A stretch of 47,785 nucleotides of DNA, from positions 1 to 47,785 of the forward strand of contig SUTY01000005.1 of NCBI GenBank assembly GCA_015152455.1. Reading direction: 5' to 3'. How positions within the stretch are numbered: the first letter of the stretch is position 1; each line of letters begins with the position of its first letter. Shown piece by piece: positions 2 to 37,485 of this stretch. The DNA comes from Cyanobacteria bacterium SIG32 (GTDB lineage Bacteria > Cyanobacteriota > Vampirovibrionia > Gastranaerophilales > Gastranaerophilaceae). Both the position numbers and the translations under genes were made by a program. The notes beneath the pieces are model-generated. The model saw only the letters and a program-made list of their open reading frames with translations, was not told where the DNA came from and searched no databases.

Positions 2-25
2 TTTAAGACCTTAGGGGGGGGGTAG
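2..25 (+). CDS. 3' end of micro-ORF upstream of prepilin A (partial)
   Basis: The window opens inside a short reading frame that ends Phe-Lys-Thr-Leu-Gly-Gly-Gly-stop, with the glycines encoded by nine consecutive G and TAG directly after them. The same ending occurs in the micro-ORFs upstream of prepilins B, C and D, and the last 24 bases match copy B. The start lies outside the window. Deleting one G would put this frame in phase with the prepilin ORF that follows, with no stop in between. Whether the peptide is made is unknown. Confidence 0.4.
   Translation, partial: FKTLGGG
14..22 (+). repeat. G9 homopolymer tract (copy A)
   Basis: Nine consecutive G lie between TTA and TAG. The same length and context occur at 22437-22445, 29261-29269 and (as C9) 36198-36206. 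Homopolymeric G tracts of this length are prone to slipped-strand mispairing. Here the run sits at the end of a micro-ORF, and the G8 frame runs straight into prepilin A. Confidence 0.85.
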
Positions 26-56
26 AAACGCTCTCCTAGCAAGGCTTTCAGACGTT

Positions 57-812
57 TTGGGATTATTCCCTCGCCCTATGGGAGAGGGTAAGGGTGAGGG
101 GGCAGCATTTACTTTAGCTGAAGTCCTAATCACCTTGGCAATTATCGGCGTCGTTGCTGCAATGACTATCCCAACATTGATAAGTGATTATCAAGAAAAA
201 GTTACAGTTACAAAAGTCAAAAAAGTATTTTACTTAATTTCTAATGCTTATAAAATGGCACAAGCTGAACACGGTTCTTTTGATAGTTGGGGAATAGATA
301 GTGGTGATTATTGGACAGAAAATGCGGCATTGATTGTTGCAAATAAAATAAAACCATATATAAGGGTTATAGACGATTGTGGAACTTCAAATTGTAACGG
401 TTATATTAATGGATCAATTACGTTTTTGAATGGCAGAACCGATTTAAACCCTACTGAAGCAGCTACAGATATGTCACAAAATAACATCTACAAAATGCGT
501 CTAGCTGACGGAGTAGGGTTGTACATAAGAGCTAGAGCAACTGAAGCTACGGTTTTGTTTGATATCAACGATAACAAAGAACCTAATGTATTAGGAAAAG
601 ATATTTTTTATTTTGCTATTTCGCCTAATAGTGTAAAAATTCCTGGAATAGGTAAAGATCCATCAAACACTTCATCATCAACACCTTGGTTTCTTTGTAA
701 TCCAGCACAACAAGGTTGGTATTGTACAGGCTGGGTTTTTTATAAAGGCAATATGGATTACTTAAAATGTCCAGATGAATTAACCTGGAATGGCAAGAAC
801 AGTTGTAAGTAA
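57..812 (+). CDS. Type IV prepilin-like protein (copy A), leader formed by repeat DNA
   Basis: Secreted or pilus-forming prepilin-like protein. The class III signal is clear: Ala followed by FTLAEVLITLAIIGVVAAMT, with Phe at +1, Glu at +5 and a long hydrophobic helix. It has Ala rather than the usual Gly at -1. The rest is a globular pilin head with five or more Cys and an aromatic C-terminus. The start is doubtful. TTG at 57 and the in-frame ATG at 78 both lack a Shine-Dalgarno sequence. The leader peptide (LFPRPMGEGKGEGA) is a translation of GC-rich repeat DNA at 68-102. With eight instead of nine G at 14-22, the upstream micro-ORF would read through into this frame without a stop, giving a longer leader. 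The gene may therefore be phase-variable or currently off. The prepilin class is certain; the start and expression are not. Confidence 0.8.
   Translation: MGLFPRPMGEGKGEGAAFTLAEVLITLAIIGVVAAMTIPTLISDYQEKVTVTKVKKVFYLISNAYKMAQAEHGSFDSWGIDSGDYWTENAALIVANKIKPYIRVIDDCGTSNCNGYINGSITFLNGRTDLNPTEAATDMSQNNIYKMRLADGVGLYIRARATEATVLFDINDNKEPNVLGKDIFYFAISPNSVKIPGIGKDPSNTSSSTPWFLCNPAQQGWYCTGWVFYKGNMDYLKCPDELTWNGKNSCK
68..102. repeat. GC-rich repeat inside the prepilin A leader
   Basis: A run of CCCTCGCCCTATGGGAGAGG type continues into G-rich DNA. It resembles the reverse complement of the repeat at 916-951, downstream of the same gene, and belongs to the loose family of CCCT/AGGG palindromes found upstream of the other prepilins. 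It is unlike the surrounding AT-rich DNA and is read as codons in prepilin A. Confidence 0.6.
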
Positions 813-22288: not shown

Positions 22289-22374
22289 AAGTCTTTAAGA
22301 CGTTAAGGCGATAAGTCTATAAGTTCAATAATTAATTATGTAACGAACTTAACGTCCTATAGTCTTAAAGACTT
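22289..22374 (+). repeat. Nested inverted repeats in the prepilin B leader
   Basis: AAGTCTTTAAGAC (22289-22301) and GTCTTAAAGACTT (22362-22374) are a perfect 13-bp inverted pair. Inside it GACGTTAAG (22299-22307) pairs with CTTAACGTC (22348-22356). The spacer repeats AAG/CTT units in a stuttering way. It is absent in this form from copies C and D, which have their own AAG/CTT modules. Confidence 0.75.
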
Positions 22375-22400
22375 AACGACTTACCAAATAAGGAGAGAGT

Positions 22401-22448
22401 ATGAAAAAGCAAACCACATATAGCTTTAAGACCTTAGGGGGGGGGTAG
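22401..22448 (+). CDS. Micro-ORF of prepilin B leader (15 codons)
   Basis: ATG with a strong ribosome-binding site (AAGGAGAGAG, 22390-22399) encodes MKKQTTYSFKTLGGG and ends in the G9 tract plus TAG. The position after a promoter and before a conserved hairpin-terminator fits a leader peptide or a relict signal peptide. Translation is inferred from the ribosome-binding site and from the equivalent ORFs at copies C and D. Confidence 0.5.
   Translation: MKKQTTYSFKTLGGG
22437..22445 (+). repeat. G9 homopolymer tract (copy B)
   Basis: Nine G followed by TAGAAACGCTCTC, the shared mark of all four prepilin leaders. Confidence 0.85.
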
Positions 22449-22495
22449 AAACGCTCTCGTAGCCTGGGTTTTGACGGTTTGCACAAAATTATACC

Positions 22496-22521
22496 GTCAT
22501 CCTGAACTTGTTTCAGGATCT
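22496..22521. repeat. REP-like palindrome (copy B)
   Basis: ATCCTGAA-N5-TTCAGGAT (22499-22519) preceded by CGTC. Sequences of this CGTCATCCTGAA...TTCAGGATCT type occur as intergenic palindromes in many unrelated bacteria. Also present at 29323-29343 but not in copy D. Confidence 0.7.
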
Positions 22522-22555
22522 CTAAATAAATTGATAAATAATATAAAAATTGAAA

Positions 22556-22598
22556 GGTTGTTAACAAGAATTAGATCTTGTACAACCTTGTTTTGTTA
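22556..22598 (+). terminator. Conserved leader hairpin with T-rich tail (copy B)
   Basis: GGTTGT-TA-ACAAGA, loop ATTAGA, TCTTGT-ACAACC: twelve base pairs with a two-base bulge, then TTGTTTTGTTAT. It is identical in copies C and D. It lies between the micro-ORF and the prepilin start, where it could act as an attenuator or as a plain terminator that isolates the gene. Confidence 0.6.
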
Positions 22599-22625
22599 TG
22601 CAAAAAACAAATTTCAAGGAAAAAG

Positions 22626-22714
22626 TCCTCCCTTGCTAGGGAGGATTTAGGTGGGTGATTATTAACAATAATAAAAGCTCACCCACCCCCAACCCCTCCC
22701 TAGCGAGGGAGGGG
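22626..22714. repeat. GC-rich inverted element (copy B)
   Basis: The left arm holds the hairpin TCCTCCC-TTGCTA-GGGAGGA and GGTGGGTG; the right arm holds CACCCACC and the hairpin CCCCTCCCT-AGCG-AGGGAGGGG. The whole is an imperfect inverted repeat of about 90 bp in an AT-rich genome. Related elements lie at 29435-29522 and 35923-36049. It looks like a non-coding REP/MITE-type element. Confidence 0.75.
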
Positions 22715-22773
22715 AGTAGAGAACAGTAATTTAAAAAATAGTAGTACATATAAAAAATGAAAGGAAAAAAGTT

Positions 22774-23541
22774 ATGAAAAAAACTGTAAAGAACTTGATC
22801 ACTTGGTCACCTAGTCACTTGATCACTTCCCCAAAATCCGCTTTTACTCTTGCTGAGGTTTTAATCACCCTAGCAATTATCGGTGTCGTTGCATCAATGA
22901 CAATTCCAACACTAACTGCAAATTACAAGAAAAAAGTTGTTGAAACACGATTGGCAAGATTTTATTCTTCTATGAATCAAGCATTACAACTTTCATCTGC
23001 AACAAATGGTTATTATACAGAGTGGGATAGCTTGAACAGAGAGAGAGTAGAGCGTGAAGATGGAAGTGCGTATTATCATACAGACAACGGCTTGGAATGG
23101 TTTAACAAATATTTAGCACCATACATAAAAACGTTAAAAGTTACGGACGAAGAAAATACTGAAGATGGTAATGTTGCGGTTTATTTCCCTGATGGTAGTT
23201 TATTATTGTTTTCAGGTTCTAGTTTTGTTTTTTATCCATTTGCCAGTGATTATGAGAAAATAATCAAGGATGAAGAAGCTGGTGTTGCAGATAGAAATAG
23301 AGATTTTTGTGGAATCAAATATTTCACATTTGCTTTTTTCCCAAAATCTGATGTTAAATGGTTTAGAAATAAAGGATTAGTTCCATTTACAAACTCAGCT
23401 TGGGACGGCACAAGAGTAGATTTGTTGAGTGATCCAACTTTAGGATGTCAAGAAACCGTTACAAATGAACGAGCTTTCTGTACTAAATTAATTGAGATGA
23501 ACGGTTGGAAAATCCCTGAAGATTACCCATTCAAATTTTAA
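22774..23541 (+). CDS. Type IV prepilin-like protein (copy B)
   Basis: 255 residues. A 23-residue leader (MKKTVKNLITWSPSHLITS plus PKSA) precedes the cleavage site before FTLAEVLITLAIIGVVA with Glu at +5, then the amphipathic helix and a head domain. The C-terminus (FCTKLIEMNGWKIPEDYP) matches that of copy C (ACTALLFVDGFEFKEDYP), so these two are closer paralogues. The ribosome-binding site AAAGGAAAAAAG is good. The leader DNA is almost identical to copies C and D, while the mature part differs at many third positions. It is probably a minor pilin or pseudopilin processed by a prepilin peptidase encoded elsewhere. Confidence 0.9.
   Translation: MKKTVKNLITWSPSHLITSPKSAFTLAEVLITLAIIGVVASMTIPTLTANYKKKVVETRLARFYSSMNQALQLSSATNGYYTEWDSLNRERVEREDGSAYYHTDNGLEWFNKYLAPYIKTLKVTDEENTEDGNVAVYFPDGSLLLFSGSSFVFYPFASDYEKIIKDEEAGVADRNRDFCGIKYFTFAFFPKSDVKWFRNKGLVPFTNSAWDGTRVDLLSDPTLGCQETVTNERAFCTKLIEMNGWKIPEDYPFKF
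22794..22828 (+). repeat. Stuttered CTTGATCA repeat within the leader codons
   Basis: Units CTTGATCA, CTTGGTCAC, CTAGTCA, CTTGATCA, CTTC follow one another and encode LITWSPSHLITS. The same block is at 29604-29638 (copy C) and in copy D (about 35808-35842), and related units sit in non-coding DNA at 35971-36000. Confidence 0.75.
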
Positions 23542-29101: not shown

Positions 29102-29190
29102 AAGAAGGCGCTAAGATACTAAGGTAGTAAGGCACTAAGAATTTACAAATAAAAGAACTTCGTATCCTAGTAACTTATAAAAAAAATATG
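29102..29190 (+). repeat. Stuttered CTAAG module before prepilin C
   Basis: Units of the CTAAG, ACTAAGG, AGTAAGG, ACTAAG kind follow the lysC stop. A partial inverse, TATCCTAGTAACTT, lies at about 29163-29177. It resembles the AAG/CTT modules of copies B and D in style rather than in exact sequence. No promoter was identified. Confidence 0.5.
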
Positions 29191-29197
29191 GAGAGCA

Positions 29198-29272
29198 ATG
29201 CTTAAGACCCAAGTAAAAAACTTTATAACTTGCTTACATACTAACTCCCTAACTCTATTAGGGGGGGGGTAG
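29198..29272 (+). CDS. Micro-ORF of prepilin C leader (24 codons)
   Basis: Encodes MLKTQVKNFITCLHTNSLTL plus LGGG, ending in G9 and TAG, with GGAGAG ahead of the ATG. The peptide resembles the prepilin leader itself (compare VKNFITCLHTNSLTL with VKNLITWSPSHLITS), which suggests a duplicated and interrupted signal peptide. Copy D has the same length and a closely related sequence. Confidence 0.5.
   Translation: MLKTQVKNFITCLHTNSLTLLGGG
29261..29269 (+). repeat. G9 homopolymer tract (copy C)
   Basis: Nine G followed by TAGAAACGCTCTC as in the other copies. With eight G the frame would stay open for about 55 codons more, through the REP-like palindrome, but would stop before the prepilin. Confidence 0.85.
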
Positions 29273-29322
29273 AAACGCTCTCCTAGCAAGGTTTTCGGCG
29301 ATTTGTTCAAAATCGTACCGTC

Positions 29323-29343
29323 ATCCTGAACTCGTTTCAGGAT
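29323..29343. repeat. REP-like palindrome (copy C)
   Basis: ATCCTGAA-CTCGT-TTCAGGAT, same element as at 22499-22519. Confidence 0.7.
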
Positions 29344-29364
29344 CTGTTAATATAAAATTTGAAA

Positions 29365-29408
29365 GGTTGTTAACAAGAATTAGATCTTGTACAACCTTGT
29401 TTTGTTAT
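29365..29408 (+). terminator. Conserved leader hairpin with T-rich tail (copy C)
   Basis: GGTTGT-TA-ACAAGA / TCTTGT-ACAACC with loop ATTAGA and a TTGTTTTGTTAT tail, identical to copy B. Confidence 0.6.
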
Positions 29409-29434
29409 GTAAAAAACAAATTTCAAGGAAAAAG

Positions 29435-29522
29435 TCCTCCCTTGCTAGGGAGGATTTAGGTGGGTGCTTATTAACAATAATAAAAGCTCACCCACCCCCT
29501 GCCCTCCCTAGCGAGGGAGGGG
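29435..29522. repeat. GC-rich inverted element (copy C)
   Basis: Same architecture as 22626-22714: TCCTCCC/GGGAGGA hairpin, GGTGGGTG, an AT spacer, CACCCACC, then CCCTCCCT/AGGGAGGG. Confidence 0.75.
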
Positions 29523-29582
29523 AGTATAGCTCAGTAATTTAAAAAATAGTAGTACATATAAAAAAATGAAAGGAAAGAAGTT

Positions 29583-30353
29583 ATGAAAAAACCTGTAAAG
29601 AACTTGATCACTTGGTCACCTAGTCACTTGATCACTTCACAAAAATCTGCTTTTACTTTGGCAGAAGTTCTAATCACCCTAGCAATTATCGGTGTTGTTG
29701 CAGCAATGACAATCCCAACTTTACTAACTAATTTTCAGAAAAAAGCTACTGCAGTAAGGGTTAAAAAGGCATATGCTGAATACGCTCAAGCTATTAAACT
29801 TTCTGAAGTTGACAATGGCCCTATGCAGACTTGGAATATGACAAACTATGGAAATGTTGATCATTCTCGCCGAATTATTGAAAAATATTTAACACCTTAT
29901 TTTTCTGGTATTAATGAATGTGATCAGGTTAATGATAAATATTGCGGTCTTAAAGCTAGTCATAATGGTTTAACTTATAAATTAAAAAACGGTACGGTTA
30001 TTTCGTTTTATCCGACTTTGATAATGGGTAAATATGCTATAATGACGGTTATTACAACCAAGCCTACGGAAAAACCTGTTATGGGGCGTGATGCTTTTTA
30101 TTTTGAAGCCGTTGATGGCAAGGTTCAACCTGCATTTTATAAGGCAGGACTTACTAGAGATGAAATTATTTATGGTTACAGATTAGAGGGTTATAATTAT
30201 AATGAATTTCACGTGTCTTGTAAGGCTGAACCAATTGAAGATTTAGGCACTGATGAAACAACTGGTGCAACTATTATTGATGATAATAGAACAGCTTGTA
30301 CTGCATTGCTATTTGTAGATGGATTTGAATTCAAAGAAGATTATCCTTGGTAA
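29583..30353 (+). CDS. Type IV prepilin-like protein (copy C)
   Basis: 256 residues. The leader MKKPVKNLITWSPSHLITS plus QKSA precedes FTLAEVLITLAIIGVVA with Glu at +5. The head domain has Cys in NECDQ, KYCGLK, VSCKAE and TACTAL, which could form two disulfides. The C-terminal block ACTALLFVDGFEFKEDYPW parallels copy B. The ribosome-binding site GAAAGGAAAGAAG is good. Leader DNA matches copies B and D almost base for base up to the cleavage site. Confidence 0.9.
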   Translation: MKKPVKNLITWSPSHLITSQKSAFTLAEVLITLAIIGVVAAMTIPTLLTNFQKKATAVRVKKAYAEYAQAIKLSEVDNGPMQTWNMTNYGNVDHSRRIIEKYLTPYFSGINECDQVNDKYCGLKASHNGLTYKLKNGTVISFYPTLIMGKYAIMTVITTKPTEKPVMGRDAFYFEAVDGKVQPAFYKAGLTRDEIIYGYRLEGYNYNEFHVSCKAEPIEDLGTDETTGATIIDDNRTACTALLFVDGFEFKEDYPW

Positions 30354-30368
30354 GGTTTTGTATATAGT

Positions 30369-30440
30369 GTAAATGAGGAGGGAAAAGTTTTCTTCCTCAT
30401 TTTTATTGCTAAAAAAAAGGAGCCATTAGGCTCCGTTGGA
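30369..30440 (+). terminator. Terminator pair after prepilin C
   Basis: ATGAGGA.../...TCCTCAT (about 30372-30400) followed by TTTTTA, then a second hairpin GGAGCC-ATTA-GGCTCC at 30420-30435. Confidence 0.7.
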
Positions 30441-34827: not shown

Positions 34828-35862
34828 TTAATTGCTTAAACAAAATGCATAATAATTACTATTAAGGTCTTTACGGTCGTCAAAATGGTGTGCGATTTCA
34901 ATGTCAAATACTTCGGCACTGATGGAACCATTTTCTTGAGAGGACCAGTATGCGCCAGAGGTTGGAATTCCTTCTTCACCCTTTCTTGAATAGAGGTCTT
35001 GTAGTTCTGTGATTGTTGGAAGATTCATTCCTAGTTCTGCACATGCTTTTTTAGCACCTGCCCAATAGTCAGTGCTAGAACCTGATGGCGAATTTCCACA
35101 GTATGCATTATAATCTGATTTGATATTAGCATCTGTTGAATTTTTTGCAGCTGTTGAACAATCTACTCCTATTGATATCATTCCTAGGTCTTTCATTGTT
35201 GCACCTGTTTTAATAGCAATATTAATCCCTCTTATGTCTTTCCCTGTATCCATTTGGTTTGGGGTCTTACCACCTGAAACATCATAAAGAATAGAAATAG
35301 CATCAGTAGATAATCCAACACTATCTTTGGAACCAGTTAATCTAACAACTTGGTTAGATAAAGGATCTTGAGTAGCTTTTGGATTATAAGCAATCAAAGC
35401 TGATACTCCGTCAGCAAATTGAACACCAATAGTTTCAGTACCATAGTTTTCTGTTGAATAAAGATTTTTAGATGCTTTTAAATCTTTAGTTTCAACAGGA
35501 TCACCAGTTGTTGTAATCGTACTTGTAAAACAATCAGTTAATTTGTCACTAGAACATGTTTTTGTAATTTTAATATGTTTGCCTAATTCTTCCACAAAAT
35601 CCGCAGTCGTTGAATACCCAGCTAAAGATGAAGTAGTATTCATCATAGCCAATGCTTCCCCAAGTCTTCTATTAAAAACAGTTGATGCAGTATCCCAAGA
35701 TTTTTGGTTGTATTCAGCAACAAGAGTTGGAATTGTCATTGCTGCAACTACGCCAATAATTGCTAAAGTAATCAATACTTCTGCTAGAGTGAAAGCGGAT
35801 TTTTGTGAAGTGATCAAGTGACTAGGTGACCAAGTGATCAAGTTCTTTACAGTTTTTTTCAT
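34828..35862 (-). CDS. Type IV prepilin-like protein with lectin-like C-terminal domain (copy D)
   Basis: 344 residues, about 90 more than copies B and C. The leader MKKTVKNLITWSPSHLITS plus QKSA and helix FTLAEVLITLAIIGVVA match the family. After a variable middle the C-terminus (about 265-344) reads YWAGAKKACAELGMNLPTITELQDLY ... GAYWSSQE ... ISAEVFDIE, where the pieces ACAELGMNLPT, ELQDLY and YWSSQE match the Lcl/DUF1566 C-type-lectin-like fold seen in adhesins. This suggests a tip adhesin-type minor pilin. It lies in opposite orientation to B and C, downstream of the SurA/PrsA-like gene. Confidence 0.88.
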   Translation of the reverse strand: MKKTVKNLITWSPSHLITSQKSAFTLAEVLITLAIIGVVAAMTIPTLVAEYNQKSWDTASTVFNRRLGEALAMMNTTSSLAGYSTTADFVEELGKHIKITKTCSSDKLTDCFTSTITTTGDPVETKDLKASKNLYSTENYGTETIGVQFADGVSALIAYNPKATQDPLSNQVVRLTGSKDSVGLSTDAISILYDVSGGKTPNQMDTGKDIRGINIAIKTGATMKDLGMISIGVDCSTAAKNSTDANIKSDYNAYCGNSPSGSSTDYWAGAKKACAELGMNLPTITELQDLYSRKGEEGIPTSGAYWSSQENGSISAEVFDIEIAHHFDDRKDLNSNYYAFCLSN

Positions 35863-36194: not shown

Positions 36195-36269
36195 CTACCC
36201 CCCCCCTAATACACTTAGGGAGTTAGTATTTAAGCAAGTTATAAAGTTTTTTATTGAGTTTTGATGCAT
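36195..36269 (-). CDS. Micro-ORF of prepilin D leader (24 codons)
   Basis: Encodes MHQNSIKNFITCLNTNSLSV plus LGGG and ends on the nine-G run (C9 on the plus strand, 36198-36206) and TAG. AAAGGAAC precedes the ATG. Closely related to the copy C micro-ORF. Confidence 0.5.
   Translation of the reverse strand: MHQNSIKNFITCLNTNSLSVLGGG
36198..36206 (-). repeat. G9 homopolymer tract (copy D, C9 on plus strand)
   Basis: Fourth copy of the tract with the same flank TAGAAACGCTCTC on the minus strand. Confidence 0.85.
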
Positions 36270-36288: not shown

Positions 36289-36347
36289 GTTAGTAAGTTA
36301 GTAAGATTTATATGGTAAATACTTCTCTTACTAACTTACTTCCTAAC
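36289..36347. repeat. Inverted GTTAGTAAG module
   Basis: GTTAGTAAGTTAGTAAG (36289-36305) faces CTTACTAACTTAC-TTC-CTAAC (36327-36347): a long stem with one three-base bulge between the SurA/PrsA-like gene and the copy D micro-ORF. It may act as a terminator-like or mRNA-stabilising structure. Confidence 0.65.
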
Positions 36348-36354
36348 ATCTATA

Positions 36355-37485
36355 CTATTTTTTGTTTTCTGTTTTAGTTTTTGATTTGTCGTCTTGTGAT
36401 TGTTCTTTAACTTGGTTTTGAAGTTTATCTTGAATAGCTTTTGGGCTATATTCAGCTTTAACATATTCAATTTTTGCATTTTTCTTCAAAGACTCTGTTA
36501 AATTATCAAGAAGTTCAAGTTGTTTTTGGTTTGTCAAATAATTTTTGATATCAGCTTTAGCTTTTTCAAAAGGTTCTTGACCTGCTTCCATTCTGTCTGT
36601 AACTAAAATTACGTGATAGCCAAATTTTGATTTAACTACAGGTGAAACTGTGTTTGGTCTTTGAGCAAATGCAGCTTTAGAAAATTCAGGAACCATTTCT
36701 TCGTGAGCAAAGAAACCTAGATCGCCACCTTTTACGGCAGTTGCTGCGTCATCAGAATTTTCTTTAGCAAGTTTTGCGAAGTCATTGATATTAGCTTTTG
36801 CCTGATTTTGTAATTTTTCAGCTTTAGCTTTTCTGGCATTCATTTCTTCGTTTACTTTAGCTTTAATTTGAGCTTCGGTTAGGTCTTTATTTTTAGGTTC
36901 AGAAGTTACAATTTCTTTAACTTCTTCCGGATCTGCAGCAACTAAGATGTGAGAAGCTCTAACTTTTGCAGGATATTTGAATTTGTTAATATTTTCTTTG
37001 TAGAATTTTTGAGCTTCAGCATCTGTTACGTCACTTTTACCTAATTCTGCTGCTAGTTTTTTCATTTTAACTTCTTCTGTTAAATCTTTTCTAAATTGTG
37101 CTACAGAAATTCCGTTATGTTTCAAAATCATATTTAATTGTTCTTTAGAACCAATTTTATCAATGATTTCCTTAACTGCATTGTCAACATCTTCTTTTGT
37201 AACTTTGATGTTTCTTTTTACTAATTCTTCTTCTAATAATGTTTTAACAATAAGTTCATTGATAACACGTTCTTGGATCATCAAATACATAAATCCGTTT
37301 GGATTTTCTTTAATATTAACGCCCATTCTTGCAAATACAGAATTATCAGCTTGTTTGTCAAATAATTTGTCGTATTGTGCTTGTGTAATCACTTTGTCGT
37401 TGATCTTAATGATTGCATCTTGTTTTAAGCTGCAGCCTGAAAACAATACTGCTGATATTGCAAGTGTTGCTACTAATTTTTTCAT
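36355..37485 (-). CDS. SurA/PrsA-type peptidyl-prolyl isomerase lipoprotein
   Basis: 376 residues. The lipoprotein signal MKKLVATLAISAVLFSGC has Cys18 as the lipidation site. A SurA-N-like helical chaperone domain follows, then a parvulin domain (about 172-300) with ASHILVA, GGDLGFFAHEEMVPEFSKAAF and SKFGYHVILVTD blocks, and a charged Lys/Gln-rich tail. It folds exported proteins in the periplasm and may help the secreted pilins and outer membrane proteins. It is preceded on the same strand by mfd (17-base gap). Confidence 0.88.
   Translation of the reverse strand: MKKLVATLAISAVLFSGCSLKQDAIIKINDKVITQAQYDKLFDKQADNSVFARMGVNIKENPNGFMYLMIQERVINELIVKTLLEEELVKRNIKVTKEDVDNAVKEIIDKIGSKEQLNMILKHNGISVAQFRKDLTEEVKMKKLAAELGKSDVTDAEAQKFYKENINKFKYPAKVRASHILVAADPEEVKEIVTSEPKNKDLTEAQIKAKVNEEMNARKAKAEKLQNQAKANINDFAKLAKENSDDAATAVKGGDLGFFAHEEMVPEFSKAAFAQRPNTVSPVVKSKFGYHVILVTDRMEAGQEPFEKAKADIKNYLTNQKQLELLDNLTESLKKNAKIEYVKAEYSPKAIQDKLQNQVKEQSQDDKSKTKTENKK

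Follow-up and report, generated by a model that had tools for sequence, protein, structure and literature searches.

The sequences described here are probably one species' version of a type IV prepilin repertoire with modular leaders, which would be phase-variable in many genes, exchanged by recombination and, in one leader class (M1), able to bypass the switch. The window, i.e., the whole stretch of DNA that was analysed, is contig C25 with 47,785 bases; genes of the rest of its genome (the own genome), related genomes and database proteins were compared with it. According to the proposed mechanism, a start codon would open a short ORF running into a poly-G tract, and the tract length would decide whether translation continues in the pilin frame, through roughly 10-190 leader residues, to the junction A/FTLAEVLITL (the slash marks the cleavage site). 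Slippage of the tract would switch the prepilin on or off, and the prepilin peptidase would cut the leader off the pilin. As the peptidase removes it, the leader could tolerate a hypermutable tract, palindromic repeats inserted in frame and the exchange of entire modules. Such modules would be swapped between paralogous pilin genes by recombination, thereby spreading, and such an exchange would account for an identity that stops near the cleavage site. Genes B, C and D and the 26 other M1 genes would use a ribosome site and start codon 3' of the repeats, independent of the tract.

Prepilin genes of the genome and the window

The own genome is a draft of 1.7 Mb in 98 contigs, 90% complete and 3.5% contaminated, and many of its contig ends lie inside pilin-leader repeats. 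Its AdhE reaches up to 88% similarity, and the named kin are mostly Candidatus Gastranaerophilales with one Scatousia (among the 80 loci listed). A profile search gave 73 matches to PF07963, the type IV prepilin motif with its (G or A)/F....E site, all above the cut-off. Leaders and sites were listed by a motif scan that parsed 67 of the 73 genes, and the remaining six were read separately; in these counts, one gene broken over two contig ends may appear twice. The 67 parsed genes comprise the leader classes M1 (29 genes), M2 (4), M3 (10), M4 (6), M5 (2), M7 (1), M0 (1) and other (14). One PF01478 protein (36.6 bits, above the cut-off) was found as prepilin peptidase. Since motif and peptidase are both present, the set is regarded as one of type IV prepilins (class III signal). 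The loci in the window are given in Table 1.

Table 1. Pilin loci in the window (positions are those of the window)
Feature	Position	Strand	Remarks
Gene A, G9 tract and class M3 leader	14..107 (G9 14-22)	+	pilin frame (...GGGRNALLARLSDVLGLFPRPMGEGKGEGAA), open from tract to cleavage
Gene A, 5' short ORF			truncated by contig start
Mature pilin A (FTLAEVLITL...)	108..812	+	
Gene B, short ORF MKKQTTYSFKTLGGG (then stop)	22401..22448	+	TAG stop directly 3' of G9 (22437-22445)
Gene B, frame entered by one-base tract change	22444..22650	+	ends at TAG in GGGAGGATTTAG
Gene B, class M1 leader MKKTVKNLITWSPSHLITSPKSA	22774..22842	+	own AAAGGA ribosome site and ATG
Mature pilin B	22843..23541	+	
Pilin C unit (short ORF, leader, pilin, terminator-like end)	29102..30405	+	directly 3' of lysC stop codon; right edge uncertain, as the DNA of seven relatives becomes alignable again somewhere from 30368 to 30446
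Gene C, short ORF MLKTQVKNFITCLHTNSLTLLGGG (then stop)	29198..29272	+	G9 at 29261-29269
Gene C, class M1 leader MKKPVKNLITWSPSHLITSQKSA	29583..29651	+	
Mature pilin C	29652..30353	+	
Gene D, short ORF MHQNSIKNFITCLNTNSLSVLGGG (then stop)	36195..36269	-	G9 at 36198-36206
Gene D, class M1 leader MKKTVKNLITWSPSHLITSQKSA	35794..35862	-	
Mature pilin D	34828..35793	-	

In 15/15 same-genus genomes, for 7 of which the DNA was aligned, lysC is followed by the next conserved gene with no pilin in between. One of these 15 has another pilin about 1.5 kb 3' of lysC, beyond the next conserved gene, and one has a G11 tract about 1.3 kb 3' of lysC. The presence of the pilin C unit here and its absence in all 15 relatives suggest that whole pilin units also arrive at new places.

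The intergenic DNA before genes B, C and D (about 22295-22385, 29103-29180 and 36290-36355) is hairpin-like and made of short repeated words, e.g., cttactaacttactaac, which differ per pilin. Judged by eye, the M1 and M2 leaders resemble single arms of such hairpins, translated as protein. A search of gene B for known structured RNA gave eight matches, all of them to microRNA families far under the gathering scores and on the long palindrome.

Poly-G tracts and the reading frame

The tract sits where homopolymer length sets the reading frame, and a slippery G run that switches the pilin on and off is what we probably see here. In the own genome, 46 of the 59 tracts of at least G9 have a PF07963 match on the same strand at most 700 nt downstream, with 0.9 expected. 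In the seven of the other 13 that were read further, the tract is near a contig end (C18, C62, C96, C42), the pilin start is at a contig end (C70), or the tract belongs to a remnant (C82) or a solo leader (C41). An ATG-started short ORF runs into the tract in 44/45 parsed tract genes; it stops directly after the tract in 36 and 14 nt further in 6, and in the other two (L051, L077_2981) it runs on into the pilin. An unbroken pilin frame connects tract and cleavage in 15/15 genes of the classes M0, M3, M4 and M5 and in 0/27 M1/M2 genes. Between M0 and M3/M5 leaders, a palindromic repeat is read in frame within the coding sequence. L081 has a G10 tract and an open leader ending in the M1 block. 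The original prediction had pointed out the G9 at genes B, C and D, where it is indeed present, and had missed the role of the tract in the reading frame.

The same arrangement is found in relatives. G9 tracts occur in 16/16 same-genus genomes (the own included), and the pilin motif follows the tract in 18/30 loci sampled within the genus, some of them overlapping. In the same-genus genome G011, where 60 pilin genes were parsed against 62 PF07963 matches, 32 of the 60 have a tract of at least G8. Their pilin frame is open to the FTLAE cleavage in 30/32 genes, over 29-578 nt, with 1.4 expected by base shuffling; the other frames are open from tract to cleavage in 2/64 cases. Read-through from the ATG is found in 4/7 genes with G10 and in 1/1 with G8 (G8 then AG), and in none with G9 (0/21), G11 (0/2) or G12 (0/1). 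Against a switch, every own M0/M3/M4/M5 gene that shows its short ORF is closed (14/14; in the 15th, the contig start truncates it), and three of the seven G10 genes of G011 are not read through.

Furthermore, open and closed versions of what seems to be one gene exist in different lineages, in four pairs with at least 98% mature identity, from a relative and not from the own species. The database proteins are gene-caller predictions lacking flanking DNA, so "the same gene" is here a matter of identity. The read-through database protein P0031 and the closed gene L275_5206 of G011, for instance, are 99.6% alike in the mature part and 144/144 in the leader; the further pairs of this kind are P0046/L275_1040, P0010/L278 and P0020/L285_1014. 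P0006 resembles the read-through gene L256 at 98%; its start lies within the leader, and it may represent a closed version. Other proteins share the mature part with a gene of G011 and differ in the leader: P0047 and L285_1014 (mature parts 97.8% alike) in the final leader module, P0013 and L290 (same mature part) in the leader as such, and P0009 and L298_1064 by an extra FTLAEGATHV segment. P0001 has both the short ORF and the leader of the own genome's M3 type, fused as G8 would give (protein only). It was considered as a gene of the own genome and rejected, with a best mature identity of 57%. By a simple pattern, 20/63 long-leader database proteins start 5' of the tract and 43/63 were not recognised as such. 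Gene callers thus seem to misplace the starts of these prepilins, and start annotations in this lineage need caution.

The fused prepilin could instead be made constantly, by programmed frameshifting of the ribosome or by slippage of transcription at G9, in which case the tract would be no switch. The stop directly after the tract in 36/44 own genes would fit such a device; the G10 and G8 genes of G011 are open without any shift, the database holds open versions of closed genes, and L092 is fused in frame without a long tract, which makes this reading unlikely.

Beyond the genus, G9 tracts were found in 34/40 family genomes examined (the own and one same-genus genome included), and similar tracts precede pilins in two other genera. 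PF07963 matches number 84 in G052, 54 in G021 and 9 in G020. Among the best-scoring of the 84 and 54 loci, respectively, the G tract lies within an open leader in 9/11 (G052) and 5/10 (G021); a further one of the ten in G021 has a C tract. G020 is a genome without G9, and of its nine loci, none of the six where the motif was located has a tract in the leader. Among the tracts listed for G052, 30/43 precede a pilin and share its strand, 5 are on the strand opposite to the pilin and 8 are near none (C5:70465 omitted). In a family sample of one tract per genome, a frame open to the pilin motif was seen for 5/29 tracts (28 loci), so that either G tracts outside the genus often lie away from pilins, or a single tract represents its genome poorly. 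In L377 (G021), a C11 tract, i.e., the homopolymer of the other strand, is located in the pilin leader frame.

The M1 genes seem to be organised differently. The start ATG is in the pilin frame in 27/27 M1/M2 tract genes. Masking of the ribosome site by the tract was tried as an explanation and rejected: with and without upstream translation, the mean unpaired fraction over the 27 genes is 0.82 vs 0.84 at the ribosome site and 0.62 vs 0.56 at the ATG. With its own ribosome site and start, equally accessible in both states, M1 probably escapes the switch and makes its pilin at any tract length.

A pure bypass does not account for the frame past the tract. At gene B, the frame reached by a one-base tract change is open for 205 nt beyond the tract, across palindromic repeats. 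The corresponding M1/M2 frame is open for 142-307 nt in 27/27 genes, and in 19/27, with 11 different lengths, it ends at the same ATTTAG. Room thus remains for an attenuation-like role in M1, in which translation of the poly-G short ORF would attenuate the downstream pilin as in pil1 of Streptococcus gallolyticus. The crossing of hairpins by this frame agrees with such a role, as does the share of distinct gap events that are multiples of three, 10/18 between the tract and the ATTTAG stop vs 21/77 from that stop to the pilin ATG. The remaining 8/18 are not multiples of three, the ribosome site is equally accessible, and between 22250 and 22900 at gene B no terminator-like site was found on the + strand (two are on the - strand). 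Attenuation is therefore considered possible but doubtful, and bypass remains the preferred reading for M1.

Leaders and mature pilins

The leaders of genes B, C and D are far more alike than the mature parts that follow them. Over the 69-nt leader, B/C differ at 4 bases, B/D at 2 and C/D at 2. Among codons for the same amino acid in the first 25 mature codons, 14/22 (B/C), 8/22 (B/D) and 11/23 (C/D) are identical. The predicted divergence at third positions after cleavage, with the same helix, was thus confirmed for these genes. The identity claimed to run from the G9 through the leader was borne out for B/C (90% over about 400 nt) and not for C/D (73%), where D has a different mid palindrome.

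In the 29 M1 genes, leader positions -48 to -16 are off the majority at 6/957 sites (1/319 third positions), and third positions of mature codons 1-20 at 146/548; a Fisher test of mature vs leader gives p of about 1e-31, with genes that are related and not independent and a leader stretch picked after the alignment was viewed. In three of five 12-nt blocks, the M1 leaders reach a similarity of 0.94-1.00, and the mature codons are at baseline: in M1 pairs, identity of same-amino-acid codons is 0.41-0.67 per five-codon block, and in different-class pairs 0.52. The best-fit change point of the 406 M1 pairs falls in -18 to -1 in 223, in codons 1-3 in 52, at codon 4 or later in 121 and before -18 in 10. 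This distribution places the M1 step usually in the last leader codons, i.e., near the cleavage site, and not exactly at the scissile bond as had been proposed. In the non-coding 54 nt at -129 to -76, the ungapped pairwise identity among M1 genes is only 0.65.

A drop in identity is also seen in M2 (4 genes) and in the G011 classes VPYCL (14), YRLN (3) and GATHV (2). No clear step was found in M3 (10 genes), M4 (6) or the G011 class THAKRAA (9); in M3 and M4, identity continues into the mature part. A sharp step in most copies, as originally expected, therefore describes M1 and VPYCL, together with the few genes of M2, YRLN and GATHV, and fails for M3, M4 and THAKRAA.

It could be proposed instead that entire genes were duplicated recently and that their mature parts then diverged fast, and the pilin C unit beside lysC, which is in none of the 15 relatives, would suit it. 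For M1, this explanation is largely refuted and in general most improbable: an identical helix is encoded with differing third positions (146/548 vs 1/319), the mature codon identity of M1 pairs is that given above against 0.52 for different-class pairs, and M1 is scattered across the mature tree. Duplication could hold for some M3/M4 copies that keep identity past cleavage.

The M1 block might also be kept alike by a constraint on DNA or RNA, as a hairpin arm, and not by copying. It is hairpin-like, and many pilin genes have its first part, inverted, on their 5' side. Such a constraint is very unlikely, as 13/23 M1 tract genes have a P2 or P3 5' region and not P1 with the inverted arm, and M2, M3 and other leaders substitute the whole block.

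The comparison of trees and pairs supports a history of the leaders apart from that of the mature domains. A "quick" tree of mature parts was built for 59/67 genes (8 under 200 aa omitted, first 25 residues removed, long branches flagged). On it, M1 needs 18 changes vs a shuffled mean of 19.8, a value as low being reached in 117/500 shuffles, and the well-supported (starred) branches alone force at least 8 changes. All classes together need 26 changes vs 28.5 (as low in 19/200 shuffles), so leader classes are at most weakly clustered, by shuffles that ignore kinship. M4 is somewhat clustered (3 changes vs 3.9, 30/500). Moreover, L048 with leader MTKRFG and L069 with an M1 leader have mature proteins 88% alike and DNA 86% identical over a stretch that begins 14 nt 5' of the cleavage codon and ends at the stop; the homology spans 887-2008, with the cleavage codon at 901 and the stop at 2007, and the flanks differ immediately outside. 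In 8/11 hand-picked pairs of similar mature regions with unrelated leaders, homology begins at most 15 nt from the cleavage codon; on the 3' side it ends anywhere between a point short of the stop and about 140 nt beyond it.

These pairs bear on the direction of exchange. Mature-pilin cassettes may have moved under resident leaders, in a pilE/pilS-like manner with many expression sites, rather than leaders onto old pilins. The shared stretch of L048/L069, bounded by the cleavage site and the stop with differing leaders and 3' flanks, is what cassettes would leave, and in C56 and C41:20024 (leaders) and C82 (G-tract part) the pilin body is lost. Several of the 11 pairs, in contrast, have homology 30-140 nt past the stop or ending before it, and the M1 leaders, alike in three of five blocks with mature codons at baseline, indicate a leader recently copied. 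Moving cassettes are a real, if lesser, possibility. The separate history of leaders agrees with the idea of a recent 5' copy onto older pilins; either leaders or mature cassettes may have been the part that moved.

The leader has a second joint at the G tract, as the 5' short ORF of M1 genes is one of three kinds, in 10, 7 and 6 genes, and each kind is found with M2 too. The short ORF 5' of the G9 of gene B, for instance, differs in type from those of C and D. The view that promoter, leader RNA and signal peptide spread as one unit had to be abandoned, since short ORF and leader travel apart.

The M1 module looks species-specific, with a match in 0/39 other genomes (17 candidates scored per genome). 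A wide spread of the exact module GGGGGGGTAGAAACGCTCTC was rejected after 0 matches in a database of genome contigs, from which the own genome is possibly excluded. Of the 33 matches to the leader 35-mer core, 29 are the M1 genes and one is the leader of the pilin L081; the last three are a pilin remnant, an inverted arm located 5' of an M1 gene and a leader without pilin.

Several unusual loci were encountered. L388 (G000 C41:19957-20060) has G9 and an M1 leader, then a terminator-like hairpin and no pilin; it is a solo leader or has lost its pilin. In the pilin remnants L131 (C56:8208-8309) and L126 (C82:2520-2763), a leader and a G-tract part, respectively, are joined to the last pilin codons, and the body is missing. 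At L392 (C95:19454), the 5' inverted arm (GTGATCAAG) is fused to about codon 5 of the pilin helix, as if deleted between short matches. L077 (C57:118-189) reads MTKRFG/FTLAE and L080 (C95:62311-62388) reads MTKRFG FTLAEGATHVGICDNARREA/FTLAE; the 60-nt in-frame insert of the latter repeats FTLAE, giving two possible cleavage sites, and a similar segment exists in G011 and in database proteins.

Comparison with known systems

For phase-variable pilins in Melainabacteria or Gastranaerophilales, no paper was found among the matches listed, which covered few subscription journals and preprints. Among the matches listed, "Melainabacteria" and "phase variation" occurred together in PMC7018530 alone, a paper on flagellins. 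That Gastranaerophilales at large are a combinatorial pilus generator, with dozens of pilins, independent poly-G switches and reshuffled switch, leader and mature parts bounded at the tract and near cleavage, has chances that we would call even. If true, a common, barely cultured gut lineage would hold an unusually large phase-variable set of surface fibres, and the signal peptide would act as a zone of recombination and insertion. Cell-to-cell diversity of pili would be predicted, and any host role that we infer stays conditional in the same way.

In Neisseria, simple-repeat switches are located in signal-peptide regions (pilC, opa), and pilE/pilS undergo gene conversion. The genes described here are similar in having simple repeats near the secretion signal and, probably, recombination among pilin genes. 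Unlike in pilE/pilS, there seems to be no single expression locus with silent copies, given the M1/M2 starts (27/27) and the short ORFs (44/45), and the exchanged part includes the leader.

The sortase pili of Bifidobacterium breve have a G-tract between a secretion-signal ORF and a pilin ORF, the length of which decides on their joining, according to the available part of the report (PMC9187656). Both cases concern a gut commensal in which G-tract length joins, or here would join, a secretion signal to a pilin. As far as that part describes them, the B. breve pili are of the sortase type, with one or two clusters per genome, whereas the present genes are type IV prepilins, number in the dozens and have exchangeable leaders made of repeat modules (PMC9187656).

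In pil1 of S. gallolyticus, GCAGA repeats in a leader ORF act via a transcription terminator, as stated in the accessible part of PMC3894217. Both systems have a repeat of changing length within a small leader ORF that precedes a pilus gene. In contrast to pil1 as outlined there, the repeat is here a homopolymer, several classes would fuse directly to the prepilin, and in gene B, the only one scanned, no terminator was found (PMC3894217).

Lastly, Rickettsia palindromic elements and other small repeats occur inside coding genes, as the part available of PMC2229807 describes. The leaders resemble them in that palindromic repeats of intergenic type are read in frame in proteins. Unlike the Rickettsia elements, to the extent that this part covers them (PMC2229807), the repeats gather here in a peptide that would be removed before assembly.
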